Source of the DNA: a virus | Reading direction: 5' to 3' (one strand) | DNA length: 22,459 bases | IMG/VR virus record: IMGVR_UViG_3300043427_000948 | Location: 1-22,459 of that record | Part shown: piece after piece, positions 7,729 to 16,836 of the stretch | Layout: each line of letters starts with the position of its first letter | Position numbering within the stretch: position 1 is the first letter of the stretch | Made by a program: the position numbers and the translations under genes | Notes under the pieces: generated by a model | Database searches by the model: none | What the model was told of the DNA's origin: nothing | The model's input: only the letters and a program-made list of their open reading frames with translations

Positions 7729-10463
7729 TATGATCCGCCTCCAAACGTTCCACCAAGTCTAATGTAATCAGTGGGACTACTAGTCGCCGATGAAGTCCAT
7801 GTGGGATTAGTGGTATGGTAAACAGTTATCCTGTATCCCACTTTGCCAGTACCACCTGTGAAAAACGCTTCACCAGAGTGTGCACCTGAAAAAGTTCTAA
7901 TCTGTCCACTGGCTGGTAACGGAGCATCTACGTTTGAGTCGTAGATGGTTTCTATTGTGGATGACCAAGTATCGTAAGGATCATTGGTTAAGCTAGGCTC
8001 CGATTTGCTATTAATTACTACTCTGGTAACATTGCTGATATCAACAAATTTATATCCTTGAGCATAAATTTGAGCACCACCGCCATCTACTGTGCCTGTG
8101 TCAATTTGACCAAAACTTAGATTACTAGCATACGGATTCGCGCTGAGGGTTGTAGTTGTGGTAGTAGTTCCAGGAGCTGCTGTAGTTGTGGTAGATGTAG
8201 TGGTGGTAGTAGTTCCAGGAGCTGCTGTAGTTGTGGTAGTAGTTCCAGGAGCTGCTGTAGTGGTAGTAGTAGTTCCAGGAGCTGCTGTAGTTGTGGTAGA
8301 TGTAGTGGTAGTAGTAGTTCCAGGAGCTGCTGTAGTTGTGGTAGATGTAGTGGTGGTAGTAGTTCCAGGAGCTGCTGTAGTGGTAGTAGTAGTTCCAGGA
8401 GCTGCTGTAGTTGTGGTAGATGTAGTGGTGGGCCCAGGAGCTGCCGTAGTTGTGGTAGTAGTTGTACTAGCAATTCTATTTTGTGTATAGGTAAATGTAG
8501 CTTTCTCTGTGCCACTGACAGCATCTATGGTATATACAAATTCTGTACTGGTTGTGTCATTGGCCGGCGACTCAAATCTAATTGGGAAAAATACCTCACG
8601 TTGTTCGCCACTCATAATATTAAACGACACAGGACTAATAAAGACATTACTGCTCGCTGGCGCTGTGTTCACTGACATGATCACAGGGTAAAATGCCATT
8701 GGAGTACCATTGGCAGCAAACAAATAAGTATTACCTAGTGTGCTTATACTATTAGTACTAAATGCAATATTAACATTGACATTGGCAGGACTAAAATATA
8801 AATCAATATTGGCCAATGGTGGAGGTGCAGTAGTAGGTGGAGGATATGTAGCCTCAGGCAAAGCGTTGAGATAAGCTGGATTGAAATCACTTTTAACATC
8901 ATAAGTTATTACACTGGCTGTACCCCGATCGTCGGCTCTGAATTCTACAACCGGTCTGGTTAATCCATCAACTACTTCATAGCGCATGTTGGTAATAATT
9001 CCAACATCGTCTTTTTCGGTATAGCTTTCACGCCATTCGCAACTATTGCTACCTGGATCAACCGCAAATTTAATTTGCCCAACACGAAATTTATTATTAC
9101 GCTGTACACTGTAAAATACACGACCCTGCTTAAATCTTGGACTTAGTGCAACATTGGCACTGGTATTGTTGGTTACTGTAATACTGCGTCCAATGGTTTG
9201 ATGCGAATTACCAAATTTGATCTGACTGTTTGGGTCGGTACTGATAATTTCAGTGGCACCATGAAACACTGTGGGGAAGTAATAATCATCCTTGTCATTT
9301 CTGAAAAATACATCGGCAATGCTGTGACTAGCATTGCCACTAAAGGTAATTACCGAACTTATGGGATTAGCAGTGGCTAATTGTCCACGACCAACATTTA
9401 AAAATGTATTGGTGCTGGTCAGCACACCTTTGAGATGAGGTTCAACTCTGATGCCTTCCTTGGCTATTCTATCAAATACACTGTCAGTGATTCGGGTACT
9501 AGCATGCGGAGGAGCGGCTGTAAACGTGGTGAAAAATACACCATAATAACTATTACTAAAGGTACAGCGTGTAACACTTACATCACTAAGTCCAATATTA
9601 CTGCTTAATAATAAATTGGTGCTAGATCCTGAAAAATCACATTCAACTACTCTAATAGATTTAGCGGCCAAGTATGTACTTTTGAACGCTACACCATTGC
9701 TGATAGAACTAGTGGTTGGTGTGGTTAAGTTACCAATGAATCGACACCTAAACAAACTTACATCACTGGCACTTTCAAACAGTGCAATGTCTCGATCAAA
9801 GGTGTTTTCAAACGTAATATTATTAATGGCAATAGGACCAGGTGCCATGCCGTTGCTGTTAATACGCTCATCAAAGATACCGGTACTGGTTGTGCTTTTA
9901 ATCAAGCAAGTAGAGGCTGGGCTCATTTGCCTGATAATAACAGCACCTTCACCGATACCATTCAAATAAGTAAATGGCGGTAAACGCAGTTCTCCATAGA
10001 CCACGTAAACACCAGGATAAAAATTTACATGTCGTCTGGTAGGATAATTAGTGAAAGCACCCAATTTATTATAAACTTCGTCAATAGCACGTTGTATGGC
10101 ATCTAGATCGTCAGTGAAGCCGTCACCTACAGCACCAAAGTCTTTTACATTGATAAAGTCGTCTAGCTTGTCCTGTAGACTGCGTAAAGTAGGACTTAGT
10201 ATAGTAGGTCCGCTTTGTGCATCATAACCACCTAACAGGCCGCGAAATCTATAGGTAAATGTGGCTAAACCATTGGTACGGAGGCTGTGTTCTGTGAGTA
10301 TTTCAGTGTTACCAATATAGGGACTGCCTTCATCTAAATTACCATTACCAATGAATAATCTTAGTTTGTCAACAGCCCATCCAAATTCGCCGCCGGCTAG
10401 CTGACCTAGGTCCTGTAATAGGCCTTTGCGTACTTGAATTTGACTTATCTGTAATACAGCCAT
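7728..10463 (-). CDS. Beta-helix tailspike / receptor-binding protein with Thr-rich repeats
   Basis: This is a 911-residue adhesin. Residues 1-60 (ISQIQVRKG, QLAGGEFGW, LRLFIGNG, TEILTEH) are the N-terminal module seen on many phage fibre proteins that attach to the virion. Residues of about 102-130 carry the pectate-lyase-like start INVKDFGAVGDGFTDDLDAI, followed by a right-handed beta-helix to about 430. The helix is rich in N, S and T turns and short strands, as in tailspikes that bind or cut polysaccharide. Beta-rich segments follow, with a PPPTTAPPP hinge at 541-549. Residues 667-772 are a Thr-rich tract with eight AAPG units, and 773-911 form a C-terminal tip domain. Whether the spike is an active depolymerase cannot be seen. 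A ribosome binding site (AGGA) precedes the ATG. Confidence 0.9.
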   Translation of the reverse strand: MAVLQISQIQVRKGLLQDLGQLAGGEFGWAVDKLRLFIGNGNLDEGSPYIGNTEILTEHSLRTNGLATFTYRFRGLLGGYDAQSGPTILSPTLRSLQDKLDDFINVKDFGAVGDGFTDDLDAIQRAIDEVYNKLGAFTNYPTRRHVNFYPGVYVVYGELRLPPFTYLNGIGEGAVIIRQMSPASTCLIKSTTSTGIFDERINSNGMAPGPIAINNITFENTFDRDIALFESASDVSLFRCRFIGNLTTPTTSSISNGVAFKSTYLAAKSIRVVECDFSGSSTNLLLSSNIGLSDVSVTRCTFSNSYYGVFFTTFTAAPPHASTRITDSVFDRIAKEGIRVEPHLKGVLTSTNTFLNVGRGQLATANPISSVITFSGNASHSIADVFFRNDKDDYYFPTVFHGATEIISTDPNSQIKFGNSHQTIGRSITVTNNTSANVALSPRFKQGRVFYSVQRNNKFRVGQIKFAVDPGSNSCEWRESYTEKDDVGIITNMRYEVVDGLTRPVVEFRADDRGTASVITYDVKSDFNPAYLNALPEATYPPPTTAPPPLANIDLYFSPANVNVNIAFSTNSISTLGNTYLFAANGTPMAFYPVIMSVNTAPASSNVFISPVSFNIMSGEQREVFFPIRFESPANDTTSTEFVYTIDAVSGTEKATFTYTQNRIASTTTTTTTAAPGPTTTSTTTTAAPGTTTTTTAAPGTTTTTTSTTTTAAPGTTTTTTSTTTTAAPGTTTTTTAAPGTTTTTTAAPGTTTTTTSTTTTAAPGTTTTTTTLSANPYASNLSFGQIDTGTVDGGGAQIYAQGYKFVDISNVTRVVINSKSEPSLTNDPYDTWSSTIETIYDSNVDAPLPASGQIRTFSGAHSGEAFFTGGTGKVGYRITVYHTTNPTWTSSATSSPTDYIRLGGTFGGGS
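8148..8465 (-). repeat. Tandem Thr-Ala-Pro-Gly coding repeat in the tailspike
   Basis: Eight copies of an AAPG unit are joined by runs of 6 to 11 residues, nearly all threonine. They fall into two module lengths: 30 bp (TTTTTTAAPG) and 45 bp (TTTTTTSTTTTAAPG). The order from the N-terminal side is an irregular first pair, then 30, 45, 45, 30, 30, 45. The near-identical DNA repeats (core CCAGGAGCTGC on the plus strand) make copy number prone to slippage. The tract keeps frame throughout and acts as a mucin-like spacer between the beta-helix part and the C-terminal tip. Confidence 0.95.
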
Positions 10464-11225: not shown

Positions 11226-11609
11226 TTATGTACGCTTTTTCGCAGCTCTTTTGGCCATAGATGCTACTGTGGCTTGTGGATTGGCGCTAGGCTCATCACG
11301 ATCACGGTCGGGACTAGTTATGTCAATGGGCTCTTCATCGTCAGGGTCCATTGGATGCAAGTGCACATAACGCACGCCGAAATCATCTGTGCTGATGCTC
11401 TTAATCAAATTCTGCACAGCTGGATTATCCTTTTGAGCGTCCAACAACAGATCCACGTTAAACATCTCACTACCTGGCTTCTTTCTAACCAAGTTGACCA
11501 GACTGTCTACACGAATTTGATCAGTTTCGCCTCTTAGTGTTTCCAGCGTGTTGATTAAGTTATTGGTTGAGGGTGTGATATCCTCAACCATAAACTCATG
11601 TGCTCTCAT
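11226..11609 (-). CDS. Conserved-type phage protein with MRAHEF N-terminus
   Basis: This 127-residue protein starts with MRAHEFMVED, a short amphipathic N-terminus with a Glu at position 9 that resembles phage propeptides, though less exactly than the genes at 14135-16571. Residues of about 17-75 are helical (LINTLETLRG, SLVNLVRKKPG, NLIKSI). Residues of about 78-115 are very acidic and Pro-rich (MDPDDEEP, SPDRDRDEP), and the end is basic (KRAAKKRT). No enzyme motif is visible. The ATG overlaps the stop of the preceding gene (TAATG), so the two are coupled. A structural, scaffold-like or head-internal protein is possible, but the role is unknown. Confidence 0.75.
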   Translation of the reverse strand: MRAHEFMVEDITPSTNNLINTLETLRGETDQIRVDSLVNLVRKKPGSEMFNVDLLLDAQKDNPAVQNLIKSISTDDFGVRYVHLHPMDPDDEEPIDITSPDRDRDEPSANPQATVASMAKRAAKKRT

Positions 11610-14134: not shown

Positions 14135-15205
14135 CTACTTTTTAGCAGCGAAACCACCAAAGTGAGCAGCACCAAAACCGCCTCGCTGTACCAACTTGAC
14201 CAATCCAGCACGACTCGGTATCACAAAACCTTCGCCTTGCGGTTGTCCTGAGACATACTGCTGCATGCCTTGAACCTGTGATTCTAGCTGTTGAGCAAGA
14301 TTTTCCTTAAGTGCACTAATCGCATTCCAAATCTTAAACACAGCATCAAGTCCACGACGATTTGTCACCAAATATCCATCACCTTCACCAACTAGAAACT
14401 TGTACTGTTTGGCACTGACATTAGAGCGTAGCCAGTCGGCCAACGGTAAATTAGTTCTTTGTGTTTTAAATTGTCCTAGATACTTTTTCAGTGCATCGCG
14501 AACTACATTTGGTGTGCCAGCTAGAAACTGATCAGCCAGTGGTCCTAGTTTACTCACTGCCACTGTGGCTGCTTGTACCAGTTGCACAGGATTTTTCAAA
14601 GCAAATTTCAAACCCATGTTAGGAGGTATCACAGTTACTTGTGCATTAGGTGTAAGCCCACGCCCATCCCAAGGCGCACCCTCGTATTGATGTACCACAA
14701 TCAGTGCTCGGCGCCCGGCAATTAACTTGCCTAGGTCGCTGTTGACTGGTACATGGTACTCTACTGTAACTGGTTTAAACACAAATTCATTGTTAACAGG
14801 TTGTAGTGGTCCTACAAACATGAGATCACCTTTAAACACGCCAGGTGTGGTGCCTACTGCCGCTTCAAGTCCAGGCCAGATTAGGTTAATTTTTCTGTAT
14901 AAATCACTGCGATTGGCTCCACGATCTTGGTCGTATTTGATCCAATCGGCAGGAGTTTTAGGATAGAAATTCTTGGCCGGCATATACTTGTCGGCGATGA
15001 AAAACTCTCCGCGCTGATCTCGGCCAAAATACAGAGCGATTTCGCCATCCCATTTAATAGTAGCAGATCCTGGATTGCCAATGATTTCTCGTAGTGCTTC
15101 TACATACCGAGCAGCACTGGCACTGCTGTCAAAGATGCTGTCCTCTGGGTGCGGAATCCTAGGACCTTCGGCAGCTTCTACTAGGTATTCGGTATAGGTT
15201 TTCAT
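14135..15205 (-). CDS. Ligase-like KxDG nucleotidyltransferase-fold protein with capsid-targeting-type N-terminus
   Basis: This is a 356-residue protein. Residues 1-13 (MKTYTEYLVEAAE) closely match the T4 internal-protein capsid-targeting peptide, with a probable gp21-type cleavage after LVE at Glu10. Lys51-Trp-Asp-Gly54 in ATIKWDGEIALYF has the form of motif I of the covalent nucleotidyltransferase (DNA/RNA ligase) superfamily. GVFKGDLMF (122-130) is a candidate motif III, EGFVI (325-329) a motif IV, and LVKLV (335-339) a motif V. The overall pattern recalls the uncharacterised T4-like phage family I remember as DUF6267, which is a recollection and not a search result. Activity is unproven and the spacing between motifs III and IV is wide. 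Its ATG overlaps the nucleotidyltransferase stop, so the two are coupled. Confidence 0.77.
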   Translation of the reverse strand: MKTYTEYLVEAAEGPRIPHPEDSIFDSSASAARYVEALREIIGNPGSATIKWDGEIALYFGRDQRGEFFIADKYMPAKNFYPKTPADWIKYDQDRGANRSDLYRKINLIWPGLEAAVGTTPGVFKGDLMFVGPLQPVNNEFVFKPVTVEYHVPVNSDLGKLIAGRRALIVVHQYEGAPWDGRGLTPNAQVTVIPPNMGLKFALKNPVQLVQAATVAVSKLGPLADQFLAGTPNVVRDALKKYLGQFKTQRTNLPLADWLRSNVSAKQYKFLVGEGDGYLVTNRRGLDAVFKIWNAISALKENLAQQLESQVQGMQQYVSGQPQGEGFVIPSRAGLVKLVQRGGFGAAHFGGFAAKK

Positions 15206-15984
15206 GCTAATCGATCACTGATTTGTCTAAACCAAGCGGCTGTGCCTGGTTGTGCTGTTTCTGGTAAACGCAGTATGCCTTTGGCTACATCCTGACGTGC
15301 TTGAGCTAGTTTGCCTTCTCGATCTGGGTCTGTGGCCAAGGCTGACATTATGCTTTTAACCGAATCTAAATCTTTTTCTTTGGCTTTAGGGTTCAACAAT
15401 ATTTTGGCCACTTCTTTTCTAGTTCTACCAACTACTTCATTGGTATCACGTGTTAGCAACTTGGCACCAAACGCATCAAACTTTAGATTTTTAAATTTAG
15501 CCAAACTGTTAAGTAGTATGAATACTTCACTGCCACGGAATTCAGGATCACCATAAGCACCACGCGGTCCATGTTGATGCCAAGGCGCTACCACAGCAGC
15601 ATCAGGAATAACCATGACATCTACTTGTGCTAGCCCAGGTTCACCAGTGTGCGTTTTATAAGGAATACCTATGTGTACGTTACGTCCACTAACCACACTT
15701 TGAATATTTTGTTTTTCAAAATGTTTACGTAATAGTTGTTTAGCATCTTTAACTGGATCTTGACTTTGACCTGTGCTGAAATATTCAACCACTGCATCAG
15801 CATCTACCATGAGATCGATATCACCAGACTGTACTTTATAACCAGCACTGCCGATATCGGTTTGCAATCCACGAACAAGTTCATTGGGCAATAGATTTTT
15901 AGCCTGTGCAACCACAGTGGCCACATCTTGTTTGGCCACTGGGCGACTGTTGGGGATTGCGTTTCCGCCTTCAGTTAAATTCAT
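15202..15984 (-). CDS. Pol-beta superfamily nucleotidyltransferase
   Basis: This 260-residue protein carries the pol-beta-type signature: Gly45-Ser46 (DIGSAGYKVQSG), then Asp55 and Asp57 (GDIDLMVD) as metal ligands, and Asp122 (QVDVMVI) as the likely third. These are the residues that transfer a nucleotide to an acceptor in tRNA-nucleotidyltransferases, poly(A) polymerases and MNT-type enzymes. The N-terminus MNLTEGGN has an L-T-E followed by Gly, the form of a prohead-protease site. Residues of about 165-215 are basic and helical. It is coupled on both sides, overlapping the 196-residue gene before it and the ligase-like gene after it, which suggests a joint job. The substrate (RNA end, protein or small molecule) cannot be read from the sequence. 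Confidence 0.85.
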   Translation of the reverse strand: MNLTEGGNAIPNSRPVAKQDVATVVAQAKNLLPNELVRGLQTDIGSAGYKVQSGDIDLMVDADAVVEYFSTGQSQDPVKDAKQLLRKHFEKQNIQSVVSGRNVHIGIPYKTHTGEPGLAQVDVMVIPDAAVVAPWHQHGPRGAYGDPEFRGSEVFILLNSLAKFKNLKFDAFGAKLLTRDTNEVVGRTRKEVAKILLNPKAKEKDLDSVKSIMSALATDPDREGKLAQARQDVAKGILRLPETAQPGTAAWFRQISDRLA

Positions 15985-16571
15985 TTTGGTTTAGCCTGCA
16001 CTCGTTGCTGGCTCAATAACTTAGCTGTTATTGCTGGTAGCCAATCAGCAGGCATTGTTTTCACTAGTGCATTCACTACTTCATCGGGCGACCTGTATTG
16101 GGTTTTTGGTGCAGTAGGTGCAGCTGGTTTTTCAGCAGGTGGTGCAGTATCCTGCGGAATACTAGGTTCAATAGGTCCTCTGATTCCTGTTCTGTCAATG
16201 GTTTCAGGTCCTTGACCTGCACGAGCACGCCAATATTCTTCGCTGCGAGCCCGAATGTAGTTATACATGTTTCTAGTGTCTTTGGCTGTTTGCAACTGTG
16301 GAGGAGCAATTGTGCTAGGACCAGGTACTTTGTCTTTGAATTTTGTATTGCTCCAGTTTATTAATTGCTGTTCGATTTGATCCGGTGTTGCTCTAGGACT
16401 AATAGTACTCAACACACCGGCCCAATCAGCATAAGCATCTTTGGCCACTGAGTCAACTTCCTTTTGAAATTTACTAGCAGCTCGACCGGCGGTCCAGCCA
16501 GTGGTAGCTCCTTGCCATGCACCTTTAATACTGTCAAATGAACCTTCAGTGATAACTTCATTGGTTTTCAT
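15981..16571 (-). CDS. Unknown protein with prohead-protease-type N-terminus
   Basis: This 196-residue protein begins MKTNEVITEGSFDSIKG. The I-T-E before Gly10 fits the (I/L)-x-E cleavage rule of T4-type prohead proteases. A Gly/Ala-rich segment (about 17-35, GAWQGATTGWTAGRAASK) is followed by a helical region with many basic residues. A Pro/Ala-rich linker (about 128-155, PSIPQDTAPPAEKPAAPTAP) leads to a C-terminal helix (DEVVNALVKTMP, ITAKLLSQQR). No enzyme motif is recognised. Its ATG lies inside the end of the 83-residue gene and its stop overlaps the nucleotidyltransferase start, so it belongs to the same late unit. A packaged internal protein is the leading idea. Confidence 0.77.
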   Translation of the reverse strand: MKTNEVITEGSFDSIKGAWQGATTGWTAGRAASKFQKEVDSVAKDAYADWAGVLSTISPRATPDQIEQQLINWSNTKFKDKVPGPSTIAPPQLQTAKDTRNMYNYIRARSEEYWRARAGQGPETIDRTGIRGPIEPSIPQDTAPPAEKPAAPTAPKTQYRSPDEVVNALVKTMPADWLPAITAKLLSQQRVQAKPK

Positions 16572-16809
16572 CTTTTATGCGCCTTATGCCACGTGCGAAT
16601 TTAGTTGAGTCGCCGCTGCGTATACTATTAATTAATCTACGCTCAAGCTCACCAGCAGTTTCCATATCATAGTTTTCTTTGATAAACTGCAACAGATGAA
16701 TAGCACTTTGTATAACATTACTGGCGCGAGATTCCACAAAGTTCTCTTTGTCTCTGCTCAAGCCCATGGTGTCTAATTCTGTTAGTATGCTTCTGGTACG
16801 CCTCTGCAC
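16558..16809 (-). CDS. 83-residue helical phage protein, first gene of late unit
   Basis: The start is GTG at 16809, preceded by GGGGGA. The product is MQRRTRSILTELDTMG, then RASNVIQSAIHLLQFIKENYD and a C-terminal ELERRLINSIRSG. It is basic, all-helical and has no membrane span. Small proteins of this type are frequent in T4-like phages without an assigned role. It directly follows a perfect late promoter box, and its final 14 bases overlap the next gene, so it is the promoter-proximal gene of the cluster that encodes the nucleotidyltransferase and ligase-like proteins. The function is unknown. Confidence 0.8.
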   Translation of the reverse strand: MQRRTRSILTELDTMGLSRDKENFVESRASNVIQSAIHLLQFIKENYDMETAGELERRLINSIRSGDSTKFARGIRRIKDENQ

Positions 16810-16828
16810 TAAAATTCCCCCAGTAGTA

Positions 16829-16836
16829 TATTTATA
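16829..16836 (-). promoter_or_regulatory. T4-type late promoter, perfect TATAAATA box
   Basis: The minus strand reads TATAAATA with no mismatch to the T4 late -10 element. It lies 20 bases before the GTG of the 83-residue gene and 13 bases after the helicase stop. The leader would be only about a dozen bases, with the GGGGGA binding site near its 5' end. It would switch the 16809-14135 gene cluster to late expression, separate from the primase-helicase unit. Confidence 0.65.

Follow-up and report, generated by a model that had tools for sequence, protein, structure and literature searches.

Candidate T4-type head-targeting leaders on two enzyme-like proteins of a putative jumbo phage, one Pol X-type and one of the ligase-like DUF6267 family

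We analysed a 22,459-base viral record from IMG/VR (IMGVR_UViG_3300043427_000948; the whole record is hereafter "the window") and focused on three consecutive genes, g1, g2 and g3, whose products begin with short peptides resembling the capsid-targeting leaders of phage T4. The window is probably a genome fragment, and its source is best read as a jumbo T4-like phage. All three genes are on the minus strand and are coupled by start/stop overlaps of a few nucleotides each, with the N-termini that the initial annotation had described. They belong to a block opened by another gene, gA, downstream of a late-promoter-type box. The features of the block are as follows.

16829..16836, minus strand: TATAAATA late-promoter-type box, starting about 25 nucleotides before gA.
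16558..16809, minus strand: gA, 83 residues, opens the late block, without leader; matches phrog_11854 ("virion structural protein", E=1.9e-15).
15981..16571, minus strand: g1, 196 residues, leader-bearing; fused to g2 in some relatives.
16545..16571, minus strand: g1 leader MKTNEVITE, predicted cut before Gly10.
15202..15984, minus strand: g2, 260 residues, Pol X-type nucleotidyltransferase.
15970..15984, minus strand: g2 leader MNLTE, predicted cut before Gly6.
15814..15852, minus strand: g2 catalytic motif GSAGYKVQSGDID, residues 45-57; G45, S53, G54, D55 and D57 invariant in alignment A1.
15613..15627, minus strand: g2 D122, the third acidic residue, within QVDVM at residues 120-124; Q120, D122 and M124 invariant in A1.
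14135..15205, minus strand: g3, 356 residues, DUF6267 (PF19782), divergent ligase-like.
15176..15205, minus strand: g3 leader MKTYTEYLVE, predicted cut before Ala11.
15044..15055, minus strand: g3 KWDG, residues 51-54, ligase motif I; invariant in alignment A2, with K, D and G invariant in A5.
14195..14233, minus strand: g3 EGFV...K, residues 325-337, ligase motif IV/V region; E, G, V and K invariant in A2 and A5.

The prohead protease gp21 of T4 cleaves after L/I-x-E (PMC9026906), and each of the three N-termini contains such a site, as had been claimed (the slash marks the predicted cut): MKTNEVITE/GSF in g1, MNLTE/GGN in g2 and MKTYTEYLVE/AAE in g3. A comparison across homologues, the check that the initial annotation had proposed, showed that the N-terminal motif is kept in 14/14 relatives of g3, 16/16 of g2 and 5/6 of g1. 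None of the 16 other window families comparable in more than one relative had the motif in a majority of its members, and it is absent from gA in 12 relatives. The leader motif stands above chance because it is conserved across the relatives of g1, g2 and g3, unlike in the neighbouring families. Its mere presence was rejected as evidence of virion association, given the lack of enrichment in the virion proteins of phage PA5oct (see below).

The pattern of conservation around the site is that of a cleavage rule. Among 63 distinct g2 contexts, P3 was L or I in 61 and P1 was E in 61, while P2 was occupied by 12 residue types; the two exceptions have Met immediately before GG, as expected of leaderless genes. 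For standalone DUF6267 relatives, [IL]xE lies just before the core in 26 of 28 distinct sequences, compared with a mean of 6.2 and a maximum of 14 after shuffling. The genes are also found fused. A single open frame joins g1 and g2 in four relatives (L017, L019, L020 and L021), with [IL]KE/GGN kept at the junction, and g2 and g3 form one frame in many others. All 45 distinct g2-g3 fusions have at least one [IL]xE within 40 residues before the g3 core (expectation 23.4 by shuffle mean, 11.4 from random windows). Persistence at fusion junctions would not be expected of a motif serving the N-terminus alone. Taken together, conservation, fixed P3 and P1 with a free P2, and the fusion junctions strongly support the reading of these N-termini as T4-type propeptides or capsid-targeting leaders.

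The g3 leader could be compared with T4 position by position, the g2 leader being shorter and that of g1 likewise unsuited. The T4 record confirmed MKTYQEFIAE as the leader of the internal proteins IPII and IPIII, and the likeness proposed for g3 was borne out, with 6/10 positions identical; among 406 open reading frame starts of PA5oct and 89 of a 76-kb relative, the best match reached at most 5/10. Mutagenesis in T4 assigned leader positions 4 and 7 to targeting and 8 and 10 to processing; in IPIII, replacing the final Glu by Asp prevents the cut and leaves targeting intact. Among 11 distinct g3 leaders, position 4 is Y or F in 10 and positions 7, 8 and 10 are invariant, while 3, 5 and 9 vary, so the fixed positions of the aligned g3 leaders coincide with the T4 targeting and processing positions. 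Residues 1-3 and 6-15 have low confidence in the AlphaFold2 model of g3.

More distant homologues are informative about the leader as a unit. It is kept in most of the relatives compared above, and among cultured phages a leader-bearing DUF6267 protein is encoded by Methylophilales phage Melnitz and Stenotrophomonas phage DLP_6. The distant g2 homologues of PA5oct, Atu_ph07 and Phosso and the DUF6267 proteins of several cyanophages lack it, so the expectation that homologues would carry the leader holds in part. The three leaderless g2 homologues start with M-SG or M-GG, which corresponds to the predicted mature end, and no upstream start able to give a leader was found for them. These starts fit a leader that is modular and removable.

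The AlphaFold2 model of g2 (mean predicted local distance difference test score, pLDDT, 80.9) matched DNA polymerase lambda in Foldseek (E=1.8e-7, probability 1.00, template modelling score about 0.46, ~205 aligned columns). The signature GS...GDxD...D is invariant or nearly so in alignments A1 and A6, and both catalytic motifs were present in 43/46 surveyed sequences. In sequence-profile comparison with known Pol X families, the only match was DNA_pol_B_thumb for one homologue (E=0.19), and no g2 tested matched the RlaP family with Pfam hmmscan. By its predicted fold g2 is thus called Pol X-like; by sequence it could not be assigned to a Pol X family. No match to g1 or g2 was found in cultured phages with tblastn. 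Pfam searches of further g2 homologues, and of a 778-residue protein beside g2 at locus L022, gave nothing significant. At the same locus, the position of g1 directly before a leader-bearing g2 is taken by a HAD-type protein (9465-10004), whose match to Pfam NT5C (E=2.6e-5) falls just short of the cut-off.

The g3 protein was assigned to DUF6267 with E=3.8e-25 and 89.5 bits, compared with a curated cut-off of 27, and its AlphaFold2 model had a pLDDT of 87.8. The signature of KxDG ligases and covalent nucleotidyltransferases was found in it, comprising motif I KxDG, motif IV EGxV and a downstream motif V lysine. In a library of predicted viral structures, its fold recovered, at E=6e-5, a PA5oct protein of 446 residues and, at E=2e-3, one from Atu_ph07 named "RNA ligase"; the former equals gp256 in size, and gp256 carries KxDG and is encoded near the g2 homologue of PA5oct. 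Such KxDG neighbours of g2 matched Pfam RNA_ligase weakly (Atu_ph07 E=0.002, Phosso E=0.085). Sequence-profile searches against the PDB with g2, g3 and the alignment of PA5oct-type KxDG proteins (A3) returned nothing useful. Motifs and model indicate that g3 is likely a divergent KxDG ligase-like protein. Of the "enzymes" of the initial annotation, g2 and g3 resemble such proteins by fold, family and motifs; g1 shows no enzyme sign.

DUF6267 had hundreds of matches in one viral-contig scan, and no mention of it was found in the literature searched. In cyanophages and a Methylophilales phage (L035 3998-5773; L041 4210-5307; L032 7625-9577), the partner of DUF6267, in the same chain or close by, is a cytidylyltransferase-like domain and not g2; the L041 neighbour begins MITFHVFITE followed by Ala, another leader-like N-terminus. 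The NrdB annotation of an 85-residue S-WAM2 gene (L033 5766-6020) looks doubtful, and so does the name of BFVD entry H8ZNG8, which matches the g3 fold and likewise refers to NrdB.

The cluster had been described as preceded by a perfect late box. The TATAAATA box is present, but a single match in the window is not above chance (1.5 expected), and it was rejected as stand-alone evidence. The box is credible because a TAAATA core recurs upstream of gA at a nearly constant offset in all 12 sequences compared. The block gA-g1-g2-g3 is a candidate for late transcription, as judged from these upstream motifs.

The order of genes in the window (primase, DnaB, gA ... exonuclease, RNR, PAAR) is that of PA5oct gp261-gp239. 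Many PA5oct products encoded between DnaB and the exonuclease, including the g2 homologue gp253, were detected as virion proteins by electrospray ionization tandem mass spectrometry (ESI-MS/MS), and gp253 and many of its neighbours are annotated as structural. By this synteny, virion association of the g1, g2 and g3 products is indirectly supported. As for the gp21-type protease expected elsewhere in the genome, an S77 protease was detected in all nine cultured-phage records searched, on a contig with a g2 relative (G025) and on another with a g3 relative (G026), but not in the other IMG/VR contigs with g2 or g3 that were searched.

We consider it fairly probable that g1, g2 and g3 are gp21-trimmed head proteins, with g2 and g3 as an injected fill-and-seal repair pair. 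They would be made late and belong inside the head of a jumbo T4-like phage, with a short N-terminal leader steering each of them into the prohead core. A gp21-type (S77) protease would then cut after (I/L)-x-E, leaving mature ends Gly-Gly- for g2, Gly- for g1 and Ala- for g3, and the mature proteins would be carried in the head and ejected along with the DNA. In the cell, the Pol X-type g2 would add or fill in nucleotides, and the ligase-like g3 would seal the break. Gaps or nicks in the incoming DNA are the likelier substrate, with RNA repair a close second; DNA is slightly favoured because polymerase lambda is the best match of the g2 model, and the alignment of ~205 columns extends beyond what a palm domain alone would give. 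The N-terminal virion peptides predicted in this way are GGNAIPNSR (g2), GSFDSIK (g1) and AAEGPR (g3).

Several observations weigh against this proposal. A bare (I/L)xE in the first 25 residues is not enriched in PA5oct virion proteins, occurring in 19/86 detected (22%) and 45/173 undetected proteins (26%). The PA5oct gp253 is found in virions although leaderless, its ligase-like neighbour gp256 was not flagged by ESI-MS/MS, and the virion list also holds metabolic enzymes, so contaminants are possible. The absence of the leader from the cyanophage DUF6267 proteins mentioned above counts in the same direction. Regarding the enzymes, nothing in Pfam or PHROG matched g1 at better than E=0.05, g3 had no significant match among solved structures (the best was a tRNA-ligase adenylyltransferase, E=0.43), and hhalign related DUF6267 to the PA5oct-type KxDG proteins weakly (probability 14%). 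Neither an S77 protease nor gp23 was found in the other searched IMG/VR contigs with g2 or g3, including one of 261 kb; these contigs are probably fragments.

The same packaging could also serve RNA repair. Where host anticodon nucleases have cleaved a tRNA, g2 would restore nucleotides at the ends and g3 would act as an RNA ligase, so that the phage is protected from the start of infection. For tRNA repair, jumbo phages pair RlaP Pol-beta nucleotidyltransferases with RNA ligases that depend on ATP (PMC7824862), and both the weak RNA_ligase matches of the g2 neighbours and the name of the Atu_ph07 protein recovered by the g3 fold point the same way. The missing RlaP match and the polymerase lambda-like model of g2 speak against it, and a polynucleotide kinase was not recognised in the cluster, so we regard this function as possible but rather unlikely. 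The proteins might instead be virion-associated parts of the head or core in whose assembly leader and cleavage serve, their enzyme folds being remnants or active in the producing cell and not after ejection. T4 IPIII influences head assembly, and the structural annotations around PA5oct gp253 would agree. Against this, even divergent relatives show little or no change in the g2 catalytic residues or in g3 motifs I, IV and V, which fits retained catalysis; we hold this alternative to be improbable.

Least probable of these explanations, in our assessment, is that the N-terminal peptides are not propeptides at all, being conserved because they couple translation or form a docking helix, with the T4 likeness a convergence on a low-information motif. 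The genes do overlap at their starts and stops, and [IL]xE is frequent near N-termini, as the PA5oct proteins undetected in virions illustrate. Yet the overlaps span only a few nucleotides, so they impose no overlapping-frame constraint, and such an explanation would leave the fixed P3 and P1 beside a free P2 in g2, the sites retained at internal fusion junctions where a start codon is unnecessary, and the leaderless homologues that begin at the mature end unaccounted for.

Compared with known systems, the predicted fill-and-seal pair combines familiar elements. T4 IPI, IPII, IPIII and Alt, which are trimmed by gp21, likewise have a short N-terminal (I/L)-x-E leader and a late-type promoter box, and the g3 leader shares 6/10 positions with that of IPIII and conserves the positions mapped by T4 mutagenesis. 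They differ in their cargo, which here is a Pol X-type nucleotidyltransferase with a DUF6267 ligase-like protein, sometimes in one chain with sites between the domains; packaging is predicted here. The RlaP and RNA ligase pairs of jumbo phages also join a Pol-beta-superfamily nucleotidyltransferase to a covalent-nucleotidyltransferase ligase, but in the portion of that source consulted they are described for RNA repair without head-targeting leaders. In a PolX-ligase fusion of Phaeocystis globosa virus, a ligase domain follows a Pol-beta-like core in one chain, an arrangement shared with the g2-g3 fusions; this is an algal virus with an NAD+-dependent ligase, and the available part of its description mentions no protease sites or virion packaging (PMC5537341). 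In phiKZ and SPN3US, as proposed here, many head proteins are processed by a gp21-related protease and then ejected, although cleavage in phiKZ follows S/A-x-E and some SPN3US propeptides, several in number, exceed 100 residues, whereas here the T4 rule and mostly short leaders are seen.

Some further observations were made in the window and its relatives. One additional gene may encode a fourth head-targeted protein, as its N-terminus resembles the T4 internal protein leaders:

11226..11609, minus strand: candidate fourth protein, 127 residues, starting MRAHEFMVE; relatives have MRAxEFxxE, with the strict motif in 4/8.

This family comes nearest to a motif majority among the 16 other window families. 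The 261-kb contig mentioned above (IMGVR_UViG_3300042890_002891, 261673 bases), which carries a g2-g3 fusion and had no S77 protease or gp23 at the sensitivities used, may be a fragment or have a divergent head module. At locus L016 (~1-2160), the DnaB helicase gene appears to hold an intein, and the insert of its second part ends with NGILTHN directly before SAVEEVEFDHSH.

The pairing of the two enzymes has precedent, and its combination with head-targeting leaders and protease sites looks new; the best reading is a new cargo on a known delivery route. More tentatively, and with slightly more doubt than confidence, we propose that T4-like phages, often jumbo ones, carry a head-packaged, protease-released repair machine of Pol X-type and DUF6267 proteins, as single proteins or a polyprotein that the prohead protease cuts, which enters with the genome and mends DNA or RNA before phage gene expression. 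If true, T4-type head targeting would serve generally to load enzymes of nucleic-acid repair, beyond the internal proteins and Alt, and a functioning polymerase-ligase pair would arrive with the virion at time zero. Such a route would also give DUF6267 a likely function, and provide a simple rule to predict injected cargo from sequence, namely an (I/L)-x-E before a conserved core that is kept at fusion junctions.

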